From: Sphingomonas hankyongi
Lineage (GTDB): Bacteria > Pseudomonadota > Alphaproteobacteria > Sphingomonadales > Sphingomonadaceae
DNA: 64,000 nucleotides
Assembly (NCBI RefSeq): GCF_023516575.1
Contig: NZ_JAMGBE010000003.1
Location: forward strand, 434,001-498,000
Reading direction: 5' to 3'
Shown: piece after piece, positions 4,869-41,632 of the stretch
Layout: every line of letters begins with the position of its first letter
Numbering within the stretch: the stretch's first letter is position 1
Translations under genes and position numbers: made by a program
The notes under the pieces: generated by a model
The model's input: the letters and a program-made list of their open reading frames with translations, nothing else
What the model was told of the DNA's origin: nothing
Databases searched by the model: none

Positions 4869-6098
4869 ATGGCCAAGATCAAGGTGAAGAACCCGGTCGT
4901 CGAGCTCGACGGCGACGAGATGACCCGCATCATATGGCAGTGGATCCGGGAGCGCCTGATCCAGCCTTATCTCGACGTCGACCTCCGCTATTTCGACCTG
5001 TCCGTCGAGAACCGCGATGCGACCGACGACCAGGTCACCATCGATGCAGCCAATGCCATCAAGGAGCACGGCGTAGGCGTCAAATGCGCGACCATCACGC
5101 CAGACGAGGCGCGGGTCGCCGAATTCTCGCTCAAGAAGATGTGGAAGTCGCCCAACGGGACGATTCGCAACATCCTCGGCGGAGTCATCTTTCGCGAGCC
5201 TATCGTCATCTCCAATGTCCCGCGCCTGATCCCTGGCTGGACCGACCCGATCGTCGTCGGCCGTCACGCATTCGGCGATCAGTATAAGGCAACCGACTTC
5301 CGCGTTCCGGGGCCCGGCAAGCTCACCATGAAGTGGACCGGCGAGAACGGGGAGGTGCAGGAATATGAGGTGTTCGATTTCCCCGGCTCGGGCGTGGCCA
5401 TGGGCATGTACAACCTCGACGAAGCCATTCGCGAGTTCGCTTATGCCTGCTTCAACTACAGCCTCGACCGCGGCTGGCCCCTCTACCTCTCCACGAAGAA
5501 TACGATCCTGAAGGCCTATGACGGGCGCTTCAAGGATATCTTCCAGGAGATTTACGACAGCGAATACAAGGCGAAGTTCGAAGCTGCTGGCATTGAATAT
5601 CAACATCGCCTGATCGACGACATGGTCGCATCCGCGCTGAAGTGGAGCGGCAAGTTCGTCTGGGCCTGCAAGAACTACGACGGGGATGTGCAGTCGGACC
5701 AGGTTGCTCAGGGGTTCGGCTCGCTGGGCCTGATGACCTCGGTGCTGATGACTCCCGACGGCAAGACCGTCGAGGCCGAGGCTGCTCACGGCACGGTTAC
5801 CCGCCACTATCGGATGCATCAGCAGGGCAAGGCGACGTCGACGAACCCGATCGCTTCGATCTTCGCCTGGACTCGCGGGCTTATCTACCGCGGCAAGTTC
5901 GACGACACGCCCGAGGTGGTCCGCTTCGCCGAGACGCTCGAAAGGGTTTGCGTCGAAACGGTCGAGAATGGCCAGATGACCAAGGATCTCGCCATCCTCG
6001 TGGGTCCAGAGCAGGCGTGGATGACGACCGAGCAATTCTTCGAGGCGATCGTGAAGAATCTCGAAGCGGCAATGGCGGAAGAAGGCGTCGCTGCTTGA
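4869..6098 (+). CDS. icd: NADP-dependent isocitrate dehydrogenase
   Basis: This enzyme oxidatively decarboxylates isocitrate to 2-oxoglutarate in the TCA cycle. The 409-residue sequence belongs to the homodimeric class that resembles eukaryotic IDH1/2, not the E. coli type. Signs are [14 protein letters not shown] near residue 9, [12 protein letters not shown] near 106 and [16 protein letters not shown] near 209. It is divergent from psd. Its stop overlaps the TTG start of the next gene (CTTGA), suggesting translational coupling. Confidence 0.96.
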
Positions 6099-6751
6099 AT
6101 TGGAGACGACAGGGCATTTACGCCCTGCTGCTCCTCATTCTCCTGTCACCGCTCGCCGCTCCGCAACTGCTGGCTTTCCCTTTTTCGGCTCGCGTCGGGG
6201 GTCATGACATCTACTCCGAAGCGCCGATCGGGCCGCGGATTAGCGAGATCGTGGGTCGCGCGGACGATGTTGCGCGGGGTTCGCCGATCGCAGGCAGCGC
6301 CGGCGATCAGCCGATTTTCCTGACCGACGGCGGGTGGCGCTGGATCTGGCTTTCGCTCGGTTCGCTCGGCGCCTTCGCGATTAGCCGACCGCTGGTCGAG
6401 GCAATTGTCGTGAACCGCAGCGATCAATCGGCGGATATCGTCCGCAATGGCCGGGCCGTCGGCGGCCGGCGCTCCCTTTCAGGAACCATCGCGCACGAGA
6501 TGACGCATGGCTCGATCCGGACTCACTTCGGGGTTACAGCCGACTGGCGCTATCCGGCGTGGCTGCGCGAGGGTTATTGCGATTATGTCGCCGGCGGCGG
6601 GTCCTTGTCGGACAAGGAAGCAGCGAAATTGGAGCAAACGGGTACGAAGCACCCTGCCCTGATCTATTGGCGGGGCCGCAAGCAGGTGGAAGCCGAGCTT
6701 CGTCGAAACGGCGGCTCCGTAGACAAATTATTCGCCGCGCACCGAATCTAG
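6095..6751 (+). CDS. Membrane-anchored HExxH protein, putative metalloprotease
   Basis: Reading from a TTG that overlaps the icd stop gives 218 residues. Residues 7-30 form a hydrophobic signal or anchor segment, followed by an outward-facing domain. HEMTH (134-138) is a canonical zinc HExxH motif, and E159 in [11 protein letters not shown] is a plausible third ligand as in gluzincins. No in-frame ATG lies between the icd stop and the hydrophobic segment, so TTG is the natural start. The frame stays open leftward into icd, but that part is an out-of-frame shadow. The 3' end overlaps the convergent monooxygenase by 24 bases. Substrate unknown. Confidence 0.7.
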
Positions 6752-8260: not shown

Positions 8261-10066
8261 ATGCACGGTGAGTTCAGCACGTCCGGTTTCAGCGATGCGC
8301 TCGTGGTGCTGGGAGCTGCGGGGATCATCATCCCAGCGTTCACGCGGTTCCGTATTAGCCCGGTCATCGGTTTCATCCTGATTGGGATCTTCGTCGGGCC
8401 GTTCGGGCTCGGCGCATTGACGCACAGCTATCCGGGGCTGAACTACGTTTCGATCTCGGACGCCGAACGGATCGAACCGTTCGCCGAGCTCGGGATCGTG
8501 CTCCTCCTCTTCTCCGCCGGCCTCCACATCAGTTTTCGCCGGCTACAGGCGATGCGACACACCGTTTTCGGGGTCGGAAGTGCGGAGCTGATCGGAAGCG
8601 CCGTCCTGATCAGCGGCGGGCTCCTGGCCTTTGGCGTAGCTCCGCAACCCGCGATCGCGCTGGGACTTGCGCTGTCCCTTTCGTCCACGGCCCTCGTCCT
8701 TCCCATCTCCGGCGTGGAAGGGCCCGTGGGCCGCTCCGCATTCGCCATGTTGCTGTTCGAAGATCTGGCGCTCGTGCCGATGCTCTTCGCGATCGAGGTC
8801 ATCGGCGGTCACGCAGAAGGTAGGGAATTCATTCGCACCGCCCTGCTCGCGATAGTCCTGGTCGCGGCCATGCTTGCCATCGGCCGGCTCGCTCTGCCCT
8901 CGCTCTTCGCCCAGGCGGCAAGAGCCAAGAACCCTGAACTCTTCCTCGCGATCAGTCTCCTGACGGTGATCCTCGCCAGCCTCGCGACAAGCGCGGTCGG
9001 GCTCTCTCCGATCCTGGGCGCGCTCATCGCCGGCATTCTGATCGGCGAAACGGATTACCATGCGGAGGTCGAAACGATCGTCGCTCCGCTGGCCGGTCTG
9101 GCGCTGGGGATATTCCTGATCACCGTTGGAATGCGCATCGATCTCCGGACGGTCACGCAGGAATGGCCTACGATCCTCGGCGCGGCCGCCGCAGTGCTGA
9201 TCGCCAAGGCGATCGTCACGACGCTGTTGCTTAGAGTATCTGGATCACGGCGAGCCGTTTCCGTCGAGACAGGCATATTGATGGCCAGTCCGTCCGAAAC
9301 GAGTCTGATCGTGATCTCCGCCGCAGCGGGGGCCGGACTGCTTGCCGCAAGCGAGGCCAATTTCTGGACGACCGTGACCGCGATCGGACTGACGGTCACG
9401 CCGCTGCTAGCCAAGCTCGGCCGTTTTGCCGGGAAGCGCGCCGCCGCCCAGCATCTCGCCGATGAGCTCGATTCGACCGTGGAGGGAGCGAAACTGGGGC
9501 AGGTCTTTGTCCTTGGCTTCGGGCGCGTCGGACGGATCGTCGCCGAAATGCTCGAAGCGCATGGCAAGGACTATCTCGCGGTCGATGCCGACATTGACGG
9601 AGTCGCCGCTGCACGAGCCGACGGTTACGACGTGCTTTTCGGTGATGTGTCCCGGCCAGAATTTCTGAAGCGCCTCGCAAAGCGCGAGCCGAGCGCCTTC
9701 ATTCTTACGATGGACAATCCGGTGCTGGTCGGCCGGCTGACACGCGCGCTTCGCAAGGCATTCCCGGATCTGCCGATCATCGCTCGAGCTCGCGATACCA
9801 GCCACGCGAGCAAGCTTTACCGCGCCGGGGTGACCGACGCCGTCCCGGAAACGCTCGAAGCGTCGCTCCAGCTATCGGAAGCGGCGCTGGTCGATCTTGG
9901 CGTCGCGATGGGACCGGTCATCGCGAGCATTCATGAAAAGCGCAGCGAACTTCGCGCGCGCATCATGCAAGAAGCCGAACTGGATGAAATCCCGGCTTTG
10001 GGGCGACGGCTAAGAGACGTTCAGACGTCCCCCGCTGGATCAAACCGAAGCACCCCCGCGGTATAG
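8261..10066 (+). CDS. CPA2-family cation:proton antiporter with TrkA-N domain
   Basis: This inner-membrane protein has 601 residues. About 12 hydrophobic helices (1-395) form a Na+/H+-exchanger-type transport domain like KefB/KefC/YbaL. They are followed from about residue 412 by a cytosolic RCK/TrkA-N domain whose Rossmann motif is VFVLGFGRVGRIVAE. Such proteins move K+ or Na+ against protons and are gated by nucleotide. No ancillary KefF/KefG subunit is adjacent. The last 46 bases overlap the convergent GFA gene. The ion cannot be told from sequence. Confidence 0.9.
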   Translation: MHGEFSTSGFSDALVVLGAAGIIIPAFTRFRISPVIGFILIGIFVGPFGLGALTHSYPGLNYVSISDAERIEPFAELGIVLLLFSAGLHISFRRLQAMRHTVFGVGSAELIGSAVLISGGLLAFGVAPQPAIALGLALSLSSTALVLPISGVEGPVGRSAFAMLLFEDLALVPMLFAIEVIGGHAEGREFIRTALLAIVLVAAMLAIGRLALPSLFAQAARAKNPELFLAISLLTVILASLATSAVGLSPILGALIAGILIGETDYHAEVETIVAPLAGLALGIFLITVGMRIDLRTVTQEWPTILGAAAAVLIAKAIVTTLLLRVSGSRRAVSVETGILMASPSETSLIVISAAAGAGLLAASEANFWTTVTAIGLTVTPLLAKLGRFAGKRAAAQHLADELDSTVEGAKLGQVFVLGFGRVGRIVAEMLEAHGKDYLAVDADIDGVAAARADGYDVLFGDVSRPEFLKRLAKREPSAFILTMDNPVLVGRLTRALRKAFPDLPIIARARDTSHASKLYRAGVTDAVPETLEASLQLSEAALVDLGVAMGPVIASIHEKRSELRARIMQEAELDEIPALGRRLRDVQTSPAGSNRSTPAV

Positions 10067-10467: not shown

Positions 10468-13115
10468 GCGGCGACCTTCTCCAGCGCGTCCCTGACAGCA
10501 TCCAGCGCCGCCTGAGCCTTGGAACCGTCGGGACCGCCGCCCTGGGCCATATCGGGACGGCCGCCGCCCCCCTGCCCGCCGAGCGTAGCAACCGCGGCTT
10601 TCAACAGGTCGACGGCACTTACCTGTCCCGCGAGGTCATCCGTGACGCCGACCGCAACGCTGGCCCGGCCCTCATTCACAGCCACGAGGGCGCCGATGCC
10701 GGAGCCAAGCCGCTTCTTCATTTCGTCAACAGCTGCGCGCAAGCCCTTGGGATCAAAGCCATCCACGACCTGGCCGAGAAATTTATGCCCATTGACCTCT
10801 TCGGGCGCGGGACCCTCGGATTTCGCGGCCCCGCCCATCGCCAGAGCTTTTTTGGCGTCCGCAAGCTCGCGCTCCAGGCGCTTGCGATCCTCCACGAGCG
10901 CAGCGATGCGCGCGGGCACCTCGTCAGGTGCGGCTTTCAGCGTCGCCGCCGCTTCGCGAAGTTTCGAATCACGGTCGGTCAGCCAGCGTCGGGCAGCCTC
11001 TCCGGTCAGCGCCTCGATCCGGCGGACCCCTGAGCTGACTGCGCTTTCGCTGATGATCTTGAGGAGCTGGATATCGCCGAGGGCACGAACATGCGTTCCG
11101 CCGCACAGTTCCACCGAATAGTCGGCATCGGCGCCGCGACCCATCGAGAGCACGCGAACCTCGTCGCCATATTTCTCGCCGAAAAGCGCCATGGCTCCCG
11201 CCGCGATCGCGTCGTCAGGAGTCATCAGCCGCGTGGTGACGGCCTCGTTACCGCGAATCTGCGCATTCACATCGGCCTCGACCTGATCGATCTCTTCCCG
11301 CGTCAGCGCCTTCGGGTGCGAGAAGTCGAAGCGGAAATAATCGGGCGCGACCAGGCTGCCTTTCTGGGTCACATGCGTCCCAAGCCGATGTCGAAGCGCG
11401 GCGTGCAGGAGGTGCGTTGCGCTATGATTGGCCCGCACGCGGTCACGCCGCATGGAGTCGACGATCTGGTGGACGCTCTCACCGACGGAGAGTTCGCCGC
11501 GAGTGATCTTGGTCCGAAGGACGTGAAGCTTGCCCAAGGGTTTTGACGTGTCCTCGACTTCGCCAGATAAACCCTTGAGTGTGCTTAGCTTTCCGGTGTC
11601 GCCGATTTGTCCGCCGCTCTCGCCGTAGAAAGGTGTCTGGTTGAGGAGCACCTCGACCGTCTCGCCGACCTCGGCGCTTTGAACGCGTGCGCCATCCTTG
11701 ACGATCGCAAGCACGACGCCCTCGCCCTCGTCGCCGGAATAGCCCGTGAACTCGGTCGCGCCATATTCCTCGGCAAGGTCGAACCAGATGTCGTCGCTCG
11801 CCTTCGACCCGGAACCCTTCCATGCGGCACGCGCTTTGGCCTTCTGCTCGGCCATGGCGCGCTCGAAGCCGTCCTGATCGACCCGAAGTTCCTTCTCGAT
11901 CAGCGCCTGCTCGGTGAGGTCGAGCGGAAAGCCATAAGTGTCGTATAGCTTGAAGGCGGTCTCACCCGAGAGCGTTTCGCCCTTCCCCAGGCCCTCGGTT
12001 GCTTCATCCAGCAGCTTGAGCCCAGTCGCAAGCGTCTGGCGGAACCGAACTTCCTCCTGCTGCAGCGTGGCTTCGATCAGCGGCTGGGCGCGAACAAGCT
12101 CGGGATAAGCGGCGCCCATTTCCGAGACGAGCGACGGCACCAGTCGGTGCATCAAGGGCTCGCTGGCGCCCAGAAGGTGCGCGTGGCGCATTGCACGGCG
12201 CATGATGCGGCGGAGAACGTAACCCCTGCCCTCATTGGCCGGCAGCACGCCGTCCGCAACGAGGAAGCCAGAAGCCCGCAGGTGGTCGGCTATGATGCGA
12301 TGGCTCGCGGCCATGTCCGCCGACTTGTTCGACGTCAGCGACTCCGAGGCATGGATGAGCGCTTTGAACGTGTCCGTCTCGTAATTGTCGTGAACCCCCT
12401 GCAGCACCGCGGAGACACGCTCCAGGCCCATGCCCGTATCGATCGACTTCTTCGGCAGTTCGGACACGATCTCGCCCGCCGCCTGCTCATACTGCATGAA
12501 GACGAGGTTCCAGATCTCGACGAACCGGTCGCCATCCTCATCGGGGCTTCCGGGCGGCCCGCCAGGCAAATGATCGCCATGATCGTAGAAGATCTCCGAG
12601 CAGGGCCCGCAGGGACCGTCGTCGCCCATCGCCCAGAAATTGTCCTTCGTGGGAATTCGGACGATCCTGCTCTCGGGAAGGCCGGCAATCTTCTTCCACA
12701 GATCGAATGCTTCGTCGTCGGTGTGATAGACGGTCGCCGTCAGCCGGTCCGGACTAAGACCCCATTCCTTCGTAATGAGGTTCCACGCCAACTCGATCGC
12801 GCGATCCTTGAAATAATCGCCGAACGAGAAATTCCCGAGCATTTCGAAGAAGGTATGGTGGCGCGCGGTGTAGCCGACATTGTCGAGGTCGTTGTGCTTG
12901 CCGCCGGCGCGGACGCACTTCTGCGAACTGGTGGCCTGGCTGTACGGCCGCGTCTCAAGCCCCGTGAACACATTCTTGAACGGCACCATCCCCGCGTTGA
13001 CGAACATGAGCGTCGGATCGTTGTGCGGCACCAGCGGGGCCGACGGGACGCGCGCGTGGCCGTTCTTCTCAAAATAATCGAGGAATCCGCGCCGGATGTC
13101 GTTGGTCGTGGTCAT
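10464..13115 (-). CDS. alaS: Alanyl-tRNA synthetase
   Basis: AlaRS charges tRNA-Ala. From the ATG at 13115 the protein has 883 residues, close to E. coli (876). The class II core includes [13 protein letters not shown]. The editing domain holds [12 protein letters not shown] and the CGGTHV zinc motif, followed by the C-terminal C-Ala domain. The reading frame extends 13 codons upstream, but the family N-terminus ([12 protein letters not shown]) supports the chosen start. No strong Shine-Dalgarno is visible. It diverges from mtgA. Confidence 0.97.
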
Positions 13116-36188: not shown

Positions 36189-36317
36189 TCATTTACGGCG
36201 CAGCGAGTCCGCTGCAGCCTCCGCGCTGCGCATTGAAATGTAAGACCAGGCCAGCAGGCCCACCGTGAGCGAGATCGCAACCGTGTAGGCGGCAGCGACG
36301 AACGGCCATGGGTTCAT
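36189..36317 (-). CDS. ccmD: Heme exporter subunit CcmD
   Basis: This tiny 42-residue protein is easily missed. It has one membrane helix (VAAAYTVAISLTVGLLAWSY) and a charged C-terminal tail ending LRRK, the standard CcmD layout. It helps CcmC load heme onto CcmE. Its ATG overlaps the ccmC stop by 4 bases, and ccmE begins 10 bases after its stop. Confidence 0.92.
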   Translation of the reverse strand: MNPWPFVAAAYTVAISLTVGLLAWSYISMRSAEAAADSLRRK

Positions 36318-37030
36318 GCGCCGAGCCTCCGCATGCGGGCTTCGACCTTTGCTTCGGCAAGCTCTGCGCGCATCCGCATCAATACCGCGGCCCCGAACAG
36401 GAAGGAAAAGCCGATCATCGTCAGCGGCAGCGGCCAGAGGATCGCATTATCGATGCTCGATCCCCCCGTCACGGAGATGCTCTGGCCTTGATGCAGCGTT
36501 CGCCACCACAATACCGAGTAATGGATGATCGGCAGGTTGACCGCGCCGACGAGCCCGTAGATCGCCGCGATCCGGCCCTCCCCGCCGCGCTCGCGCTCCG
36601 CCGACGCAAGGGCGACATAGCCAAGGTAGAGGAAGAACAGGATCAGCATCGACGTCAGCCGGCCGTCCCATTCCCACCAGGTGCCCCACGTCGGACGCCC
36701 CCAGATGGAACCGGTGAGCAGGCAGATGGCGGCGAACGTGGCGCCCGCCGGAGCGACGGCGCGCCCCGCGACTGCCGCCAAGGGATGGCGCCAGACCAGC
36801 TGGCTGATCGATGCGGCGGCAATCCCGAGCCAGCCGCCCATGCCGAGCCATGCCGACGGAACGTGGACGTACAGGATCCGTACCGTCTCGCCCTGCAAAT
36901 AATCGGGCGGCGTGAGGGTCAGGCCGGCGCTTATGCCCAACAGGGCGAGCGCCAGGCCGACGGCCAGCAGCCAAATGGTCGCGGGCCGGGCAATGCGCAG
37001 GAAACGCGCCGGGTTAGCGAGCGCGTGCAT
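36314..37030 (-). CDS. ccmC: Heme exporter CcmC
   Basis: CcmC presents heme to CcmE. The 238-residue protein has six membrane helices and the tryptophan-rich WGTWWEWD (115-122). Periplasmic histidines include H56 in the segment LYVHVPSAW. It is first of the ccm genes here; ccmA and ccmB, usually upstream, are absent, and the gene upstream is an amino-acid dehydrogenase 9 bases away. Confidence 0.95.
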   Translation of the reverse strand: MHALANPARFLRIARPATIWLLAVGLALALLGISAGLTLTPPDYLQGETVRILYVHVPSAWLGMGGWLGIAAASISQLVWRHPLAAVAGRAVAPAGATFAAICLLTGSIWGRPTWGTWWEWDGRLTSMLILFFLYLGYVALASAERERGGEGRIAAIYGLVGAVNLPIIHYSVLWWRTLHQGQSISVTGGSSIDNAILWPLPLTMIGFSFLFGAAVLMRMRAELAEAKVEARMRRLGA

Positions 37031-37039
37031 GGCGGCGCC

Positions 37040-38089
37040 TCAGGCTCTCCCGATCAGGCGCTGCGCCATCGCATCGGCGACGGAAGCCGGGTCGCGGCCG
37101 GTCTCGGCGCTTTCCGCCCAGATCTGCTCGAGCCGCACCGGAATGCCTTCGATCCGCTGGCGCACCAGGCTGGCATCGCCATCCGCGAGATATTCGGTGC
37201 ACACGTTGATGATACCACCGGCATTAATGACATAGTCGGGCGCATAGAGGATGCCCCGTCCGTGAATGCGGGAGCCGTCTTCCGGGGTGGCGAGCTGGTT
37301 GTTCGCGCCGCCGGCGACGATCGGCGTCTTCAGCGCCGCAATCGACTGCTCGGTGAGGATCGCGCCTAATGCGTTCGGGCTGATCACGTCCGCTTCGACC
37401 CCCAGGATCTCGTCCGGCGATACGACCGTGCCGCCGACCTTGTCGGCCAGCTTCCGGGCCTTCGCCTCGTCGACGTCGGCGATCGTCACCTTCGCCCCCT
37501 CGGTGCACGCGTGGAGCGCAACGCCGCTCGCAACGCTGCCGGCGCCCTGCATCGCGATATGCAGTCCGGAAAGATTGTCCTTGCCCAGCGCCCGCTTGAC
37601 GGCCGCCTTAATGCCCAGGAACACGCCAAGCGACGTATGCGGTCCGGGATCGCCTCCCACGTCGCCCGCCGAGTTCGGCAGGCCAGCGACATATTTGGTC
37701 GCCCGCGCAACCTCGATCATGTCGGCGACGCTCATGCCGACATCCTCCGCAGTGACATATCGGCCACCCAGACTGTCGACCGCTTTGCCGAATGCGTGCA
37801 GCAGCTCCGGCGTCTTTTGCCGGTCGGCGGGCGCCAGGAGCACGGACTTGCCGCCACCGAGCGGAAGGCCTGCCATGGCATTCTTGTAGCTCATGCCGCG
37901 CGACAGGCGCAGGGCGTCCGTCAAGCCGTCCTCGTCATGTGCATAATGCCAGAAGCGCGCGCCTCCTGCGGCGGGGCCAAGATGCGTCGAATGCATCGCG
38001 ACAATGGCCTTGAGGCCAGTCGCCTCATCCTCGAAAAAGCGTACTTCTTCGTGGGCATCAAAATCAGGCAGAGCCTCAGGCTGAATCAT
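37040..38089 (-). CDS. Glu/Leu/Phe/Val dehydrogenase (leucine dehydrogenase-like)
   Basis: This 349-residue amino-acid dehydrogenase has the catalytic Lys region PLGGGKSVLLAP (about 94), the N-terminal AIVAMHSTHLGPAAGG, and a Rossmann segment AMQGAGSVASGVA. Size and motifs fit leucine dehydrogenase, which deaminates branched amino acids with NAD+. Substrate specificity is inferred. It lies 9 bases before ccmC, so it may drive the ccm operon. The frame is open a further 26 codons upstream, into the tRNA relic, but the family N-terminus supports 38089. Confidence 0.87.
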   Translation of the reverse strand: MIQPEALPDFDAHEEVRFFEDEATGLKAIVAMHSTHLGPAAGGARFWHYAHDEDGLTDALRLSRGMSYKNAMAGLPLGGGKSVLLAPADRQKTPELLHAFGKAVDSLGGRYVTAEDVGMSVADMIEVARATKYVAGLPNSAGDVGGDPGPHTSLGVFLGIKAAVKRALGKDNLSGLHIAMQGAGSVASGVALHACTEGAKVTIADVDEAKARKLADKVGGTVVSPDEILGVEADVISPNALGAILTEQSIAALKTPIVAGGANNQLATPEDGSRIHGRGILYAPDYVINAGGIINVCTEYLADGDASLVRQRIEGIPVRLEQIWAESAETGRDPASVADAMAQRLIGRA

Positions 38090-38122
38090 TTGTCGGGAAA
38101 GTCCGCAGCAATGGTGAATGGG

Positions 38123-38170
38123 TGGGGCGTGCGACGCGACTTGAACCCGCGACCCTCGGTACCACAAGCC
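38123..38170 (-). pseudogene. Displaced 3' fragment of tRNA-His
   Basis: This stretch matches the 3' half of the intact tRNA-His at 40247: anticodon loop, variable and T arms, and acceptor 3' strand with CCA. A 30-base core is identical. The acceptor strand differs at two positions that would break pairing, as expected for a non-functional relic. No 5' half is adjacent. It marks the far end of an integrated element. Confidence 0.82.
38138..38167. repeat. Putative att repeat, relic side
   Basis: This is a 30-bp sequence identical and in the same orientation to 40262-40291. It spans tRNA positions from the anticodon loop through the T loop, a usual crossover site for tyrosine recombinases. Confidence 0.8.
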
Positions 38171-38361
38171 AACCCTAGCGTTGTTTTTATTGGGTTTTTT
38201 TGCAAACCGTGGTCCGGCACTCGCCGTAACGCTCCTAGACGCGCCCTGTGGCTGTAAACTGAAACGCTGTCAATTTCGCAGACTAAGCTCGTACTCGAGG
38301 CAGCCGTTGAGGGCATGCGTGAGGAATCTCGCTAATGGCGGAATGGGTGGAAAGCGGACCC
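38168..38361. other. Left end of the element, no gene seen
   Basis: This 194-base stretch begins with a T-rich tract (about 38177-38201) and contains no ORF with a ribosome site. A segment near 38330-38355 (GCGGAATGGGTGGAAAGCGG) recalls a short repeat I associate with sphingomonad genomes, but only one copy was noticed here. Confidence 0.4.
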
Positions 38362-38559
38362 TCAGCTCGATCGTGACCCTAGCAGTCGAACGAGAATGTC
38401 GTCGTAATCCGCGATGTCCTGGCTCAGCATGGTGATCGCTTCCTCCTTCGTCATGCCATGCGAAGGTTCGCAAACGTTCGCTTGGATTGAGGCGAGCAAG
38501 GCTGCTTTGTGATCGCGTTTGAGTTGGGTCTTGGCAATGCCCCTATCGGAATAGCTCAA
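38362..38559 (-). CDS. Micro-ORF 9, 65 residues
   Basis: This ORF begins with a TTG that overlaps the stop of micro-ORF 8 (TTGA). The product is helical and charged, with SIQANVCEPSHGMTKEEAI and a C-terminal ADYDDILVRLLG segment. There is no signal or membrane helix. Function unknown. It is the last ORF of the array. The 4-base overlap is the main evidence that it is translated. Confidence 0.5.
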   Translation of the reverse strand: MSYSDRGIAKTQLKRDHKAALLASIQANVCEPSHGMTKEEAITMLSQDIADYDDILVRLLGSRSS

Positions 38560-38756
38560 GCGCTTTCGCCCGGTGTGTCCACTCCCGGCGGGATGGTGTC
38601 ATTCGGTTCGACGGCGTCGAGCCGGTCGGCCTCCGCATCCAATTCGTCTGCCATCATGCGCAATTCGGTTTGGCCTTCGAGACTACTCATGTTGTGGGAA
38701 ATGCGCCGCGCTTGTGTTGCGCGAGCGCGAAACGCGTCCGAATTCTCAGTACCCAT
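38556..38756 (-). CDS. Micro-ORF 8, 66 residues
   Basis: AGGAAGAGG lies close before the ATG. The product is an amphipathic helix-rich protein (FRARATQARRISHNMSSLEG, then LRMMADELDAEADRLDA). Heptad-like spacing suggests a coiled coil. From memory, similar short proteins occur widely in alphaproteobacteria without a known function. It is coupled to micro-ORF 9. Confidence 0.58.
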   Translation of the reverse strand: MGTENSDAFRARATQARRISHNMSSLEGQTELRMMADELDAEADRLDAVEPNDTIPPGVDTPGESA

Positions 38757-38802
38757 TGTTGCCTCTTCCTAGTCACTTTCGCGGACGCCCTAGGCGGAAA
38801 GT

Positions 38803-38988
38803 TCAGGCACGCTCGTCGCCAAGTCGTTCGTTGAGTTGCGCCAGTCGCTTTTCAAGCACGGCCAGATCGCCCGACGTAGTCGCCTGCCTCGGATCGGATT
38901 TCCGATCGCGTCGGATGCCCAGGGCATGTGCGCAATGAAGAAGCTCAACCAAGCGATCCCGCTCCTCGTGCCAATTTTCCGTCTGCAC
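38803..38988 (-). CDS. Micro-ORF 7, 61 residues (GTG start)
   Basis: The start was set at a GTG 6 bases after AAGGAG (about 38995-39000); the frame opens further upstream without a ribosome site. The product (NWHEERDRLVELLHCAHALG, then LEKRLAQLNERLGDERA) is helical with two amphipathic segments and one Cys-His-Ala-His stretch. Function unknown. Confidence 0.55.
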   Translation of the reverse strand: MQTENWHEERDRLVELLHCAHALGIRRDRKSDPRQATTSGDLAVLEKRLAQLNERLGDERA

Positions 38989-39007
38989 AACGGGCTCCTT
39001 TCGCATC

Positions 39008-39253
39008 TCAAATTTGCATTCGCTGATGGGAAGCACCTGAGTTCGCAGCCCGCCGTGCGGATAACTCGCCCTCGAGCTCGGCCACTAGGCCACTGACCGA
39101 TTTCTCGGAAGAATTGACAGGAATGCAGACTGCATATTCGGCAAGCATTCTCCAATGCCGCAGAGTATCATTATGCACCGGCTTGCCGCGCCACCTGCGC
39201 GCGCTCGCGATCGCCGCTAGTAGATTGGAGCGAACGCTGCCCTCAATCTTCAT
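39008..39253 (-). CDS. Micro-ORF 6, 81 residues
   Basis: The ATG lies 2 bases after the stop of micro-ORF 5, suggesting reinitiation. The product has a basic N-terminus (LLAAIASARRWRGKPVHNDT) and an acidic helix near the middle (KSVSGLVAELEGELSARRAA). It has no export signal. It is the longest of the nine. Function unknown. Confidence 0.5.
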   Translation of the reverse strand: MKIEGSVRSNLLAAIASARRWRGKPVHNDTLRHWRMLAEYAVCIPVNSSEKSVSGLVAELEGELSARRAANSGASHQRMQI

Positions 39254-39255
39254 CG

Positions 39256-39354
39256 CTACGCCTTGCTCGACGGGTTCAGAGCCGGAGCCTTCTTCGATTT
39301 ATTCGCCTTCGGTTTACGTGTCTCCTTGGTGGAGCGCTTCTGTCCTTTAGCCAT
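39256..39354 (-). CDS. Micro-ORF 5, 32-residue Lys-rich protein
   Basis: This 33-codon ORF is far below usual calling limits. It encodes a protein starting MAKGQKRSTKETRKPKANKS and continuing with more Lys, Ala and Pro. The MAKGQ-RS-KE-RKPK pattern matches, from memory, a short conserved alphaproteobacterial family, which is the main reason to call it. It may bind RNA or DNA by charge. The ribosome site is weak (AAGG about 13 bases upstream). Confidence 0.6.
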   Translation of the reverse strand: MAKGQKRSTKETRKPKANKSKKAPALNPSSKA

Positions 39355-39391
39355 GCCGTTACATCTACCTTTCAATACCTGACTTCCCCGG

Positions 39392-39616
39392 TCACCAGAG
39401 AGGGCTCGCCGGACGATGCCGCTCGCGAACAACTTCGCCCGTCATCAGATGCCGTTTGAACTTGCGCATCATTTCCGATGCGCCGTCACTGCTCATGCAG
39501 ACAAGCCTGACGCCTCCCCCGGGAAGACGTTCGATAGCGGAAATGCCGACATTCGCGGCGAGGCACTGCGCGACGACCTGACCCTCATCGAGCGACACGA
39601 AGAGGACCCGGCTCAT
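39392..39616 (-). CDS. Micro-ORF 4, 74 residues
   Basis: The ATG overlaps the stop of micro-ORF 3 (ATGA). The product alternates hydrophobic strands and helices (VLFVSLDEGQVVAQCLAANV, RLPGGGVRLVCMSSDGASEM), consistent with a small alpha/beta fold of ferredoxin-like size, and ends in a basic tail. It is the most folded-looking member of the array. Function unknown. Confidence 0.58.
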   Translation of the reverse strand: MSRVLFVSLDEGQVVAQCLAANVGISAIERLPGGGVRLVCMSSDGASEMMRKFKRHLMTGEVVRERHRPASPLW

Positions 39617-39756
39617 CTTTTGGGGGTCCGTCTGGCAGCGGCGACTGCGTCGCTCAGATTGCTGTAGCGATAGCCTCCCCAGAGAAACGCTTCGGTCTGC
39701 ACCCTCTCTATCCCGAGGCGGGTCAACTCTGCATCATCGATATGATTGTCCTTCAT
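39613..39756 (-). CDS. Micro-ORF 3, 47 residues
   Basis: The start was set at the ATG at 39756, 6 bases after GAGG; the frame opens 31 codons further upstream with no family signal. The product (DDAELTRLGIERVQTEAFLW, then GGYRYSNLSDAVAAARR) is a compact helix-turn-helix-sized segment, too short to assign. It is coupled to micro-ORF 4. Confidence 0.55.
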   Translation of the reverse strand: MKDNHIDDAELTRLGIERVQTEAFLWGGYRYSNLSDAVAAARRTPKR

Positions 39757-39790
39757 CGGGGCCTCGCGATTTTGTTGGGGATTGGCGGCA

Positions 39791-39964
39791 TCATCGCCGC
39801 AAGCTTTTTGGGTCGATGAGCCGAGCATCATCGTCGAACCTTTCGGCAACAGCCTTGAGCGCCGTCGAGCCAGAGGCCGTGCGGGCTCGCTGGGCGAGGC
39901 GGCGGCAGGATGCCGCCTGCTCTCGCAGCCCGTCGGCCGCCTCTTCGCGAGACGGGCCGTTCAC
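39791..39964 (-). CDS. Micro-ORF 2, 57 residues (GTG start)
   Basis: A GTG overlapping the stop of micro-ORF 1 (GTGA) opens a 57-residue frame: EEAADGLREQAASCRRLAQR, then ALKAVAERFDDDARLIDP. Two amphipathic helices with an REQAxxCRRLAxxA pattern resemble, from memory, a widespread short alphaproteobacterial protein. The frame continues upstream antisense-free but without a start signal. Confidence 0.6.
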   Translation of the reverse strand: MNGPSREEAADGLREQAASCRRLAQRARTASGSTALKAVAERFDDDARLIDPKSLRR

Positions 39965-40119
39965 GCGATTGCTACTCGATTGTCGCGCACCGCGTCGGCG
40001 ATCCGGCCAGCATAAGCCCTCGCGAGAAATCGATGCACTCGGCGAGACCGGTCGCAGGCAGCGTTCTCGGCCATGAGAAGCGATACGCCGTGCCGGTGAT
40101 AGAGATAATCGAGGTCCAT
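39961..40119 (-). CDS. Micro-ORF 1, 52 residues
   Basis: This is the first ORF of the array, 127 bases from the tRNA-His 3' end. GGGAG lies just upstream of the ATG. The product starts MDLDYLYHRHGVSLLMAENA and continues with an Arg-rich helix ending in VAIA. The DYLYHRHGVSLxxAxxAxC pattern resembles short sphingomonad proteins as I recall them. Function unknown. Confidence 0.62.
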   Translation of the reverse strand: MDLDYLYHRHGVSLLMAENAACDRSRRVHRFLARAYAGRIADAVRDNRVAIA

Positions 40120-40200
40120 TTGGGGCTCCCTTCAGTAAGCGGGAGCGCATGGTCTCTCAGCCGCGCGAAAGCCTACATGTGAAGAAGCGCGCGATGCCGC

Positions 40201-40206
40201 ATCATA
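40201..40206 (-). promoter_or_regulatory. Possible -10 for the micro-ORF array
   Basis: A TATGAT hexamer (minus strand) lies 82 bases before micro-ORF 1, between it and tRNA-His. No convincing -35 is present. The array could instead be read through from the tRNA-His promoter. Nothing else was seen in 40120-40246. Confidence 0.25.
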
Positions 40207-40246
40207 TCACATGCAGTGCTGATTAGCTAACGCGGTGACAGTCTTA

Positions 40247-40324
40247 TGGGGCGATCGACGGGACTTGAACCCGCGACCCTCGGTACCACAAACCGATGCT
40301 CTAACCAGCTGAGCTACGATCGCC
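40247..40324 (-). tRNA. tRNA-His (GUG)
   Basis: This 78-nt gene includes the G at position -1 that is specific to tRNA-His. It has acceptor GGCGATCG/CGATCGCC, anticodon stem TCGGT/ACCGA with loop TTGTGGT (anticodon GTG), T loop TTCAAGT and an encoded CCA. Its 3' half contains the att repeat and was probably supplied by the integrated element. Confidence 0.95.
40262..40291. repeat. Putative att repeat, tRNA side
   Basis: This 30-bp stretch inside tRNA-His is identical to 38138-38167. The pair defines the element's ends. Confidence 0.8.
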
Positions 40325-40412
40325 ACAGCGCTTCGAGGCCGCCCCGTCAGCGGTTCCCTAATGCGCCGGCGCCACTTAGGGTTCGTTCTATTCGAACGCA
40401 AGCGAGGCACCC

Positions 40413-40841
40413 GTGAACGAGACGATCCGGAAATTCGGCTATCCCTCGACCTTGGTCGCAGAGCTAGAGCATTGGGTGATCCTGCTTCGTCCGGCGCAGG
40501 TGACCCTTGGCTCACTCGTGCTCGCGGCGAAGAGCGACGCGACTGCCTTTTCGCAAATCCCCGTGGAAGCTTTCACGGAACAAGCGGACGCTGTCCGGCG
40601 CATCGAGCAGGTTCTCGCCGGATTTTGCTCGTACGAGCGGCTCAACTACCTCATGCTGATGATGGTGGACCCCAACGTGCACTTCCATGTCATTCCCCGC
40701 TATTCAGAGCCTCGACAATGGAACGGGCTCGAATTCGCAGATGCGGGGTGGCCTGGAATGCCCCAGCTCGGAACAGCGCGGGAGCTCACCGGCGGCGAAA
40801 AATCGCAGCTAACGAGCGAACTCGCCGAGAGATTCCGCTAA
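40413..40841 (+). CDS. HIT-family nucleotide hydrolase
   Basis: This 142-residue protein carries the histidine triad region NVHFHVIPR. The central (H90) and last (H92) histidines are present, but the first is Asn (N88). HIT enzymes hydrolyse dinucleoside polyphosphates or nucleoside phosphoramidates; the central His is the nucleophile and is kept. The Asn swap may alter activity. It lies just right of tRNA-His, divergent from it. Confidence 0.85.
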   Translation: MNETIRKFGYPSTLVAELEHWVILLRPAQVTLGSLVLAAKSDATAFSQIPVEAFTEQADAVRRIEQVLAGFCSYERLNYLMLMMVDPNVHFHVIPRYSEPRQWNGLEFADAGWPGMPQLGTARELTGGEKSQLTSELAERFR

Positions 40842-40924
40842 TCGAAATCAGTACGCCATTTGTCTAATTCCCTTGCGGAGGCTTCTCGCGAGGCGCATCA
40901 ACTAAGTGCGGGAGAGGCTTTAGG

Positions 40925-41632
40925 ATGGCGAGTCGACGCGGAAGATCGCCACCTCCGGGTGTGTCGCTGCGCGATACCTTGATCGCGGCGGGCCTCGAAA
41001 CGCATCTCGCCGATATGCTCGAGGAAATGCCCCACAAGGTCATGCAGGTGGAGCCTCGTCGGGCGTTCAGAGAGCCGGGTTCGCCTCGCGACGAAGTCCT
41101 GTTCGTGCGCTCGGGAATCCTTTCTAAATTCAAGACTGACCTTAGCGGCCGGCGCCATATCGTGGCGCTGAGGTTCGCCGGCGAGGGAATCCTTCCGCGG
41201 CCTGGCCGCTCCGACTTTGGCATCCAGGCCATCGTCCGAAGCGAGGTGATGGTGGGAAAAGCGGCGGATTTCGATCCGATCGTCGATGCTCACCCAGAGC
41301 TCCAGCGTTTCTTCATGCGGCTCATCCAGCGCCACGAAGCGATCGGCTACGAATGGCTGGTGAATTGCGGACGGCGGGATTCCGTCGCGCGGGTCGCGCA
41401 TCTGCTCTGCGAGACTGCCGAGAGGATGCACAGCGGCACGAACCGCCTCGTCAATCCCTTCACGCAACAGCAGATCGCGGACATCACGGGCCAGACGTCC
41501 GTCAACGTCAATCGCGTTTTTGCGGACATGGAGCGGCAGGGGCTGATCAAGCGCGCCGGACGAGAGATCCAGTTCAACGACTGGATGGAAATGCGGAGGG
41601 TCGCGAGCTTCCGCCCGGAATATCTCGCTTAA
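40925..41632 (+). CDS. Crp/Fnr-family transcriptional regulator
   Basis: This 235-residue regulator has an N-terminal cyclic-nucleotide-binding-like beta roll (about 20-140). A C-terminal winged helix-turn-helix has RDSVARVAHLLCETAERM and the recognition helix region NPFTQQQIADITGQTSVNVN. There is no Fnr-type four-cysteine cluster, so oxygen sensing through iron-sulfur is unlikely. The signal and targets are unknown. A GGGAGAGG-like site precedes the ATG. Confidence 0.9.
   Translation: MASRRGRSPPPGVSLRDTLIAAGLETHLADMLEEMPHKVMQVEPRRAFREPGSPRDEVLFVRSGILSKFKTDLSGRRHIVALRFAGEGILPRPGRSDFGIQAIVRSEVMVGKAADFDPIVDAHPELQRFFMRLIQRHEAIGYEWLVNCGRRDSVARVAHLLCETAERMHSGTNRLVNPFTQQQIADITGQTSVNVNRVFADMERQGLIKRAGREIQFNDWMEMRRVASFRPEYLA

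Follow-up and report, generated by a model that had tools for sequence, protein, structure and literature searches.

A small tRNA-His insertion in Sphingomonas hankyongi carries nine micro-ORFs behind a conserved, probably structured leader RNA

Here we describe a short element at the tRNA-His gene of Sphingomonas hankyongi, located in a 64,000-nucleotide stretch (hereafter the window; contig NZ_JAMGBE010000003.1, positions 434,001 to 498,000) of a 2.55-Mb genome assembled in 8 contigs (GCF_023516575.1). Comparison with genus mates showed that the 3' part of tRNA-His received an insertion of ~2.1 kb, which left a 48-bp repeat behind. With a probability of roughly 0.6, we read the element as a remnant resembling a cis-mobilizable element (CIME) in which selection has kept an operon of micro open reading frames (ORFs), and whose leader RNA would be the 5' untranslated region (UTR) of that operon and a translational switch. 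Elements of the insert's kind are known; what looks new is the leader in front of its cargo.

Results

Insertion at the tRNA-His gene

The intact tRNA-His(gtg) and a relic of its 3' part form a direct repeat of 48 nt (38123-38170 and 40247-40294), 44 of them identical, at a distance of 2,124 bp. An earlier note on this DNA, made from the letters alone, had reported a 30-bp exact repeat; that block is present (38138-38167 and 40262-40291), and the homology around it extends to 48 bp. The exact block begins in the anticodon loop, at position 33 (anticodon at 35), and the anticodon loop is a usual place of tyrosine-recombinase attachment (att) sites in tRNA genes. When the tRNA was compared with the window using BLAST, the relic was matched with an E-value of 3.8e-15 and the sole other match was a normal tRNA-Met (E 1e-9). 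Allowing up to one mismatch, the 30-mer occurs in the source genome only at the gene and the relic. The two copies differ at four positions (38130, 38131, 38137 and 38168) rather than the two noted earlier, and since none of nine aligned relatives has the relic's base at any of these sites in its tRNA-His gene, the relic is the decayed copy, as had been proposed. A stem variant, CCGAGGG, is common to relic and gene (present in two of the nine aligned relatives, missing in seven), so the relic matches the gene of its own lineage. The 3' part of the intact gene was probably supplied by the element.

We compared positions 36314-41632 with 60 genus mates. The left flank reaches the relic and the right flank starts at the tRNA, and in relatives these two segments share a stretch roughly as long as the repeat; the dehydrogenase gene of the left flank directly adjoins tRNA-His. 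All 29 loci that were read directly had an empty site and a single tRNA-His. Coordinate arithmetic on the alignment listing favoured an empty site in all 26 further genomes, with observed distances of -48 to 880 bp compared to the 2,076-3,025 bp expected with the element; these genomes deviate by up to ~430 bp from the exact empty-site expectation because the stretch from the tRNA to the next gene varies. The remaining five genus mates (G012, G027, G028, G040 and G056) were not judgeable from the listing. A filled tRNA-His site was found in none of the 55 assessable genus mates. The ~2.1 kb was therefore inserted in the source lineage, and the insertion is private to it among the genus mates assessed. 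Relatives with the relic and ORFs in place and no empty site, the outcome that would have contradicted the earlier proposal of site-specific integration leaving an intact gene, were absent among the genus mates assessed, and the evidence supports an insertion that leaves the gene intact.

It is extremely improbable that no insertion took place and that the repeat stems instead from an old duplication of the tRNA, or is left over from a tRNA array, with ORFs in the intergenic space. The region does have more than one tRNA, with a tRNA-Val 1.3 kb away, but the 2.1-kb interval is missing from every assessable relative, the loci read have one tRNA-His each and the relic consists of the 3' 48 nt only. 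In 500-bp steps, G+C content was 56-64% in the element, 64-69% to its left and 60-65% to its right, so that base composition does not point strongly to a foreign source. Across 397 genomes of the family, a search for further tRNA-His islands with the 30-mer (≤1 mismatch) was rejected, as the pattern was too narrow and matched 20 genomes; two matches occurred only in the source genome and in the fragmentary genome G382, on two contigs.

Structure of the leader

The leader sits upstream of the first micro-ORF, within the element and close to its tRNA-side boundary, and its motif was first seen repeated at two other places in the genome. The pattern GAGAGN{3,10}GCTCCCGCTT gave 65 matches, spread over 37 of the 71 genus genomes, compared to 8 matches in 7 genomes for a reversed control. 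From 43 motif matches, two (L135 and L137) were dropped as chance matches within genes, and the alignment of the resulting 41 leaders contains two hairpins with complementary loops. Thirty-nine of these entered alignment A1, and the 14 with equal loop length served as the seed (A2) of a covariance model that holds helices 1 and 3 only, helix 2 being left out; in five of the 14, MAFFT had put a gap in helix 1. The model, whose E-values are rough by the tool's own statement, gave 68 matches in 60 sources, some places being counted twice in overlapping loci. A further alignment, A4, was built from 54 chosen sources and has 62 rows, 61 of them distinct.

Pairing in helix 1 before the model was built reached 6.22 of 7, compared to 4.86 in 2,000 partner shuffles (maximum 5.34), with a script that placed the 5' strands by best fit and thereby favoured the result. 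In A4, which was fitted to helices 1 and 3 and so favours both, 93.3% of cells were paired over the distinct rows (37-41% in slid controls), 96 cells were changed on both sides compared to 29.6 in shuffles (0 of 500 reaching this), and four of five summary measures exceeded every shuffle. Helix 1 had 94.4% of cells paired; five of its six pairs have double changes, and GC, CG, AU and UA are all used. Helix 2 was 98.8% paired although it lies outside the model (4-9 rows per pair excluded for gaps), with UA/CG/UG and AU/GU exchanges that include UA to CG in nine rows. Helix 3 was 87.1% paired; the last pair is open in most rows (34 of 60), and the 5' strand shows almost no variation. Its 3' strand, with GGAG, is the predicted Shine-Dalgarno sequence. 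A start codon follows helix 3 by 3-12 nt in 59 of 62 leaders (5-6 nt in 41), as located by a script that preferred starts at 2-14 nt, giving the leader a fixed place before start codons that covers the ribosome site.

That preference and the fitting of A4 weigh against reading the leader as a folded switch, as do several further results. The margin of helix 2 over partner shuffles was small (5.71 compared to a maximum of 5.68), because this helix varies little. Over the whole structure, pairs with a double change numbered 7 compared to 6.0 in shuffles (118 of 500). Helix 3 rests on complementarity and position and not on double changes, because its 5' strand hardly varies. Minimum-free-energy folds of five leaders resembled those of shuffles (z -0.89 to 0.40), and a longer stretch of the window was also unremarkable (z -0.79); the case for structure rests on covariation. 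Finally, the model found no leader at E ≤ 0.001 in 20 of the 71 genus genomes, so the leader is not essential. Taken with the pairing results, the alignments show that the relatives of this leader make up a structured RNA family with helices that covary, most strongly in helix 1, more weakly in helix 2 and not by double changes in helix 3.

The leader might alternatively be a conserved promoter and Shine-Dalgarno region or a dispersed DNA repeat, with no folded RNA. GAGAGA and GCTCCCGCTT are indeed conserved as sequence, the energies are unremarkable and copies are spread over genomes. We regard this as very unlikely given that pairing is kept in helix 1 through all four Watson-Crick combinations and in helix 2 through UA, CG and GU/AU, that outside the family C replaces U opposite G in helix 2 (L196 and L198) and that the position before start codons is nearly fixed. 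If a -10-like TATGAT, read by eye, serves as promoter, transcription would begin near the leader's first base; a sigma-70 consensus scan of 38000-40500 gave no promoter. An EcfG-type promoter (GGAAC-N15..19-CGTT) was considered and rejected: the window has four matches, all of them outside the element, and this number is close to chance, being reached in 11 of 100 shuffles.

Against Rfam 15 (4,227 families, E ≤ 1), positions 37800-40700 matched only tRNA, leaving the leader unmatched, and seven further loci with leaders gave no match. No description of the leader was found in the portions of the literature searched, which included a term look-up in PMC2864571 and did not cover the 2017 survey of candidate structured RNAs.

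Micro-ORF cargo

The element carries nine ORFs of 32-81 codons, all on the minus strand, which together account for 1,650 bp of the 2,076-bp interval that separates the repeats, with 4-base overlaps in three neighbouring pairs (Table 1); the earlier description of its cargo as micro-ORFs only was accurate. Genus-mate homologues were identified for seven of them (i1, i3, i4 and i6-i9). The closest homologues of these seven had nonsynonymous divergence (dN) of 0.16-0.48 and synonymous divergence (dS) of ~1 or more, except that none of the comparisons for i1 and i3 allowed dS to be computed, and more distant pairs reached a dN of 0.63. The i1 homologue in L075, for example, shares 66% of amino acids (dN 0.23, dS not computable), and i4 has homologues in L075 (59%, dS not computable) and L090 (36%, dN 0.63, dS 2.15). 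For i5 there was no trusted homologue, with one 38% match outside any cluster. These values suggest that the seven micro-ORFs with homologues are under purifying selection and are compatible with the idea, raised earlier, of a remnant whose cargo is kept by selection.

Table 1 Features of the element and its flanks, in window coordinates
Feature	Position	Strand	Remarks
Glu/Leu/Phe/Val dehydrogenase gene, left host flank	37040..38089	minus	Pfam PF02812/PF00208
tRNA-His 3' relic, att-like repeat	38123-38170	minus	44/48 identical to gene; repeat alignment, BLAST
Diverged copy of dispersed palindrome-like repeat, ~GTCCGCTTTCGACCCATTGCGGACATTAG	38337..38359	minus	between relic and operon
Micro-ORF i1, 65 aa	38362..38559	minus	TTG start as listed
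Micro-ORF i2, 66 aa	38556..38756	minus	weak similarity only (32%)
Micro-ORF i3, 67 aa	38803..39006	minus	47% aa to homologue in L075; no dS obtainable
Micro-ORF i4, 81 aa	39008..39253	minus	
Micro-ORF i5, 32 aa	39256..39354	minus	Lys-rich
Micro-ORF i6, 74 aa	39392..39616	minus	78% to G031, dN 0.19, dS 2.7
Micro-ORF i7, 47 aa	39613..39756	minus	
Micro-ORF i8, 57 aa	39791..39964	minus	GTG start
Micro-ORF i9, 52 aa	39961..40119	minus	MDLDYLYHRH...; first gene after leader
Candidate structured leader RNA, 71 nt	40125..40195	minus	model R1, 66 bits, E 5.8e-15
Helix 3, holds predicted Shine-Dalgarno GGGAG	40146-40141 with 40130-40125	minus	
Helix 2, loop-loop	40176-40171 with 40140-40135	minus	
Conserved GAGAGA	40158-40153	minus	
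Helix 1	40193-40188 with 40167-40162	minus	
-10-like TATGAT	40201..40206	minus	read by eye
Intact tRNA-His(gtg)	40247-40323	minus	tRNA call
142-aa ORF, right host flank	40413..40841	plus	DNA similarity in part of relatives only

Searches of the nine micro-proteins against Pfam, NCBIfam and PHROGs gave nothing convincing (best PHROG E 0.0043, of unknown function), and i6 had no match at E ≤ 0.01 among 50,697 phage records. No integrase, phage or transfer family was found in the element with PF00589 or with these three databases, in agreement with the earlier note's statement that it holds no integrase or phage gene. The phage-derived or phage-interfering genes that mark phage satellites (phage-inducible chromosomal islands and kin) were likewise not found, and nothing positive emerged for the satellite moved in trans that had been offered as one explanation.

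Related clusters elsewhere

Related micro-ORF clusters were collected in 20 contexts of at most 16-18 kb each, 19 from 18 genus mates and one from the source genome itself. The order i9, i8, i7, i6 is mostly kept where these ORFs are present, the exception being a weak i8 match in L088; i4 comes after i6 in L075 and L090, and L075 then has i1 and i3 in swapped order. The notion that these clusters are themselves tRNA islands was rejected: six tRNAs lie in five of the 20 contexts with no second copy in their stretch, and the remaining 15 contexts have no tRNA. Homologues of seven recombinase frames of the source genome (E ≤ 1e-6) were found in none of the 20. The anatomy given in the earlier note was right, and it had overlooked both the leader and these clusters in many genus mates.

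The source genome has two further i6/i7 paralogue pairs (C2:453-461 kb) flanking a short recombinase gene. This gene encodes a 203-aa tyrosine recombinase (L095 8794-9405, C2:~458.8-459.4 kb), and a decayed relative of it lies inside a tRNA-Tyr island of the same genome (L097, about 5625-6189). As a separate observation, the 23-nt palindrome-like repeat with a diverged copy in the element is frequent in accessory-looking stretches, with 6 copies in L095 (G000:C2:450000-469000), 8 in L097 (C2:530000-549900) and 5 in L082, compared to none in L099, L100, L102 and L103 and 1-2 in other scanned stretches, several of them poor.

Origin of the element

Islands in tRNA genes are usually inserted by a tyrosine recombinase at the segment from the anticodon loop to the 3' end. 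We propose that such an enzyme acted on this segment of tRNA-His and that its gene would later have been lost, leaving a CIME-like remnant whose operon was retained by selection. Two hallmarks of a tRNA island, a 3' tRNA repeat with an intact gene and an empty site, are present, and a recombinase of its own was not found. Decay of an island with a selected operon kept would need known steps only and would fit published CIME-like elements, and we consider a decayed island likelier than movement in trans. Counting against this account, no credible integrase remnant was seen in the element, and because of this the loss can only be inferred. The best candidate remnant was rejected: it matched, with E 4.5e-4, a stop-to-stop Xer reading frame, which probably extends beyond the gene itself, and while 20 mononucleotide shuffles gave a higher best E of 0.002 (median 0.024), we did not credit the match.

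A live, non-autonomous hitcher that never had an integrase, integrated and excised in trans by a recombinase elsewhere in the genome or on a visiting element, would also explain why the 2.1 kb contains no credible integrase trace and why leader and operon fill it so neatly, and other recombinase genes do exist in the source genome. We consider this unlikely. The search for a helper that the earlier note had suggested came back empty, with no tRNA-His gene or relic near the genome's other recombinase genes; one such region is the tRNA-Tyr island with its exact 59-60 bp repeat, and another lies beside a tRNA-Ser. Moreover, the relic has decayed at its four positions, and the source genome contains no second copy of the whole element.

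An intrachromosomal origin is possible though doubtful, in which the cluster found near nrdB in relatives moved to tRNA-His by island capture or recombination and did not come from outside. A protein cluster represented by nrdB (ribonucleotide-reductase small chain, identified by a Pfam run on one representative) has a member near the micro-ORFs in eight of the 20 contexts, and in G058 and G039 the micro-ORF cluster is bracketed by nrdB and an M1 peptidase gene. In the source genome these two genes are apart (on C1 and C2), and no relative of i1-i9 at E ≤ 0.01 was found in the 7.1 kb after nrdB or the 20 kb before the peptidase gene. Compared with G031 and G039, the element's DNA is 66-73% identical over the ORFs, a divergence about usual for neighbours, and the dehydrogenase side is 77-80% identical. 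Against relocation, a home copy may have been lost independently, and the two further i6/i7 pairs lie at C2:453-461 kb. Relocation alone leaves the tRNA repeat unexplained, and a recombinase is therefore still needed; it is compatible with the remnant reading rather than exclusive of it.

Comparison with known systems

The earlier remark that elements without a recombinase are unusual was overstated. In the portions of PMC5704250 and PMC3146451 consulted, att-flanked elements lacking a recombinase are named CIMEs, and 15 islands without an integration module are described at Dehalococcoides ssrA. Like these, the tRNA-His element retains att repeats derived from its target RNA gene, has no integration or transfer gene that we found and carries cargo only. 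Unlike a CIME, it is very small, has no tandem island seen adjacent to it and has a single leader-headed micro-ORF set as cargo; the likeness is one of repeats and cargo, and no remnant of a parent integrative and conjugative or integrative and mobilizable element was seen. The Dehalococcoides islands use a serine recombinase according to the same portions, unlike the tyrosine recombinase proposed here.

The tRNA-Tyr island of the same genome (C2:531.9-548.6 kb) shares a 3' tRNA repeat and leader matches, of which it has two, and differs in that it spans 16.6 kb, is bounded by an exact repeat and contains recombinase genes. In this island, the 59-60 bp exact repeat lies at L097 1928-2013 and 18575-18633, with two recombinase genes. 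Tycheposons of Methylophilaceae, as presented in part of PMC10872708, are likewise tRNA-bounded cargo elements, but they span 4-200 kb and have a tyrosine recombinase, compared to none found here. Taken alone, the element is one more integrase-less island, though an unusually clean one.

For the leader, the nearest parallel is the odc1 motif of alphaproteobacteria, which the consulted part of PMC8632094 describes as a cis-acting leader with a pseudoknot and hidden ribosome site, tested with a Sphingomonas example. The same source gives odc1 as one extended hairpin with a UUG-started upstream ORF, mostly before ornithine decarboxylase, whereas in the present leader two hairpins are in contact through their loops, and the genes that follow are micro-ORFs. 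We rejected odc1 as its identity on the basis of this difference in architecture.

Proposed action of the leader

RNA thermometers and translational riboswitches sequester the Shine-Dalgarno sequence in a hairpin. The leader, which has no Rfam match at the threshold used, appears to do likewise and is best interpreted, from sequence, as the cis-acting translational switch and 5' UTR of the operon. Hairpin 1 would lie at the 5' end of the transcript and hairpin 3 would bury the Shine-Dalgarno sequence; a 6-bp loop-loop (pseudoknot) contact joining the two could set the stability of hairpin 3. The ribosome site would then be opened or closed by a signal that acts either at the loop contact or at the conserved GAGAGA linker, the linker being a likely contact for a ligand, protein or second RNA. 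Stress and cold are candidate signals by neighbourhood only, because a cold-shock gene and a desaturase gene lie near one leader and a PAS/HisKA_2 kinase gene lies behind a weaker-scoring one.

More tentatively, the leader may belong to an RNA class not yet described that senses a ligand or temperature and controls micro-proteins and a PAS/HisKA_2 stress-type kinase as one regulon across Sphingomonadaceae, with switch-headed micro-operons as mobile tRNA-island cargo. If so, an inserted member of the regulon would carry its own promoter and switch and be under host control at once. The arrangement suggests a route by which gene sets with their own post-transcriptional control could move between sites, and if the leader senses something, the identity of its signal would help explain the purpose of the micro-proteins.

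Distribution and downstream genes

The leader model matched 51 of the 71 genus genomes at E ≤ 0.001 and, in the family at E ≤ 0.01, 116 of the 249 genomes, with 56 of the 96 genera sampled represented, making the leader a common handle on many unannotated micro-proteins. At class level, 11 of 385 genomes matched at E ≤ 0.001, four of them family members and seven outside the family. The source genome has 12 matches at E < 0.03. Two of them lie in the tRNA-Tyr island, at C2:541.7 kb and C2:542.0 kb, and five fall within C2:452-466 kb. Leaders were also found on plasmids: in Novosphingobium pentaromativorans US6-1 the match lies on pLA3 and scores 58.9 bits, and in Sphingobium sp. TomTYG65 it lies on pTomTYG65a, scores 48.1 bits and has an annotated cold-shock protein ~1 kb away.

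Genes downstream of the leaders examined are mostly micro-ORFs, many starting MDLN.LY and others of the i6, i7 or i8 kinds. One weaker leader match (26.6 bits) precedes a PAS/HisKA_2 histidine kinase gene, and another downstream protein has a cyclic-nucleotide-binding-like stretch below the Pfam cut-off. Weaker matches before kinase genes lie at L116 858-921 and L095 14128-14191, with Pfam PAS/HisKA_2 domains shown for the one in L095. The best-scoring leader within the source genome heads an i9-like frame (L082 8643-9069) whose similarity to i9 ends after 33 residues, and the leaders of L085, L086, L089 and L077 are of a longer variant, in which ~15-20 additional nt separate helix 3 from GAGAGA. 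By eye, genes of cold-shock type in the neighbourhood of leader operons have in common an apparent second conserved 5' leader (L082 about 9160-9280; L095 about 5590-5640 and 11840-11900), the Pfam CSD run having been made on the L082 gene only.

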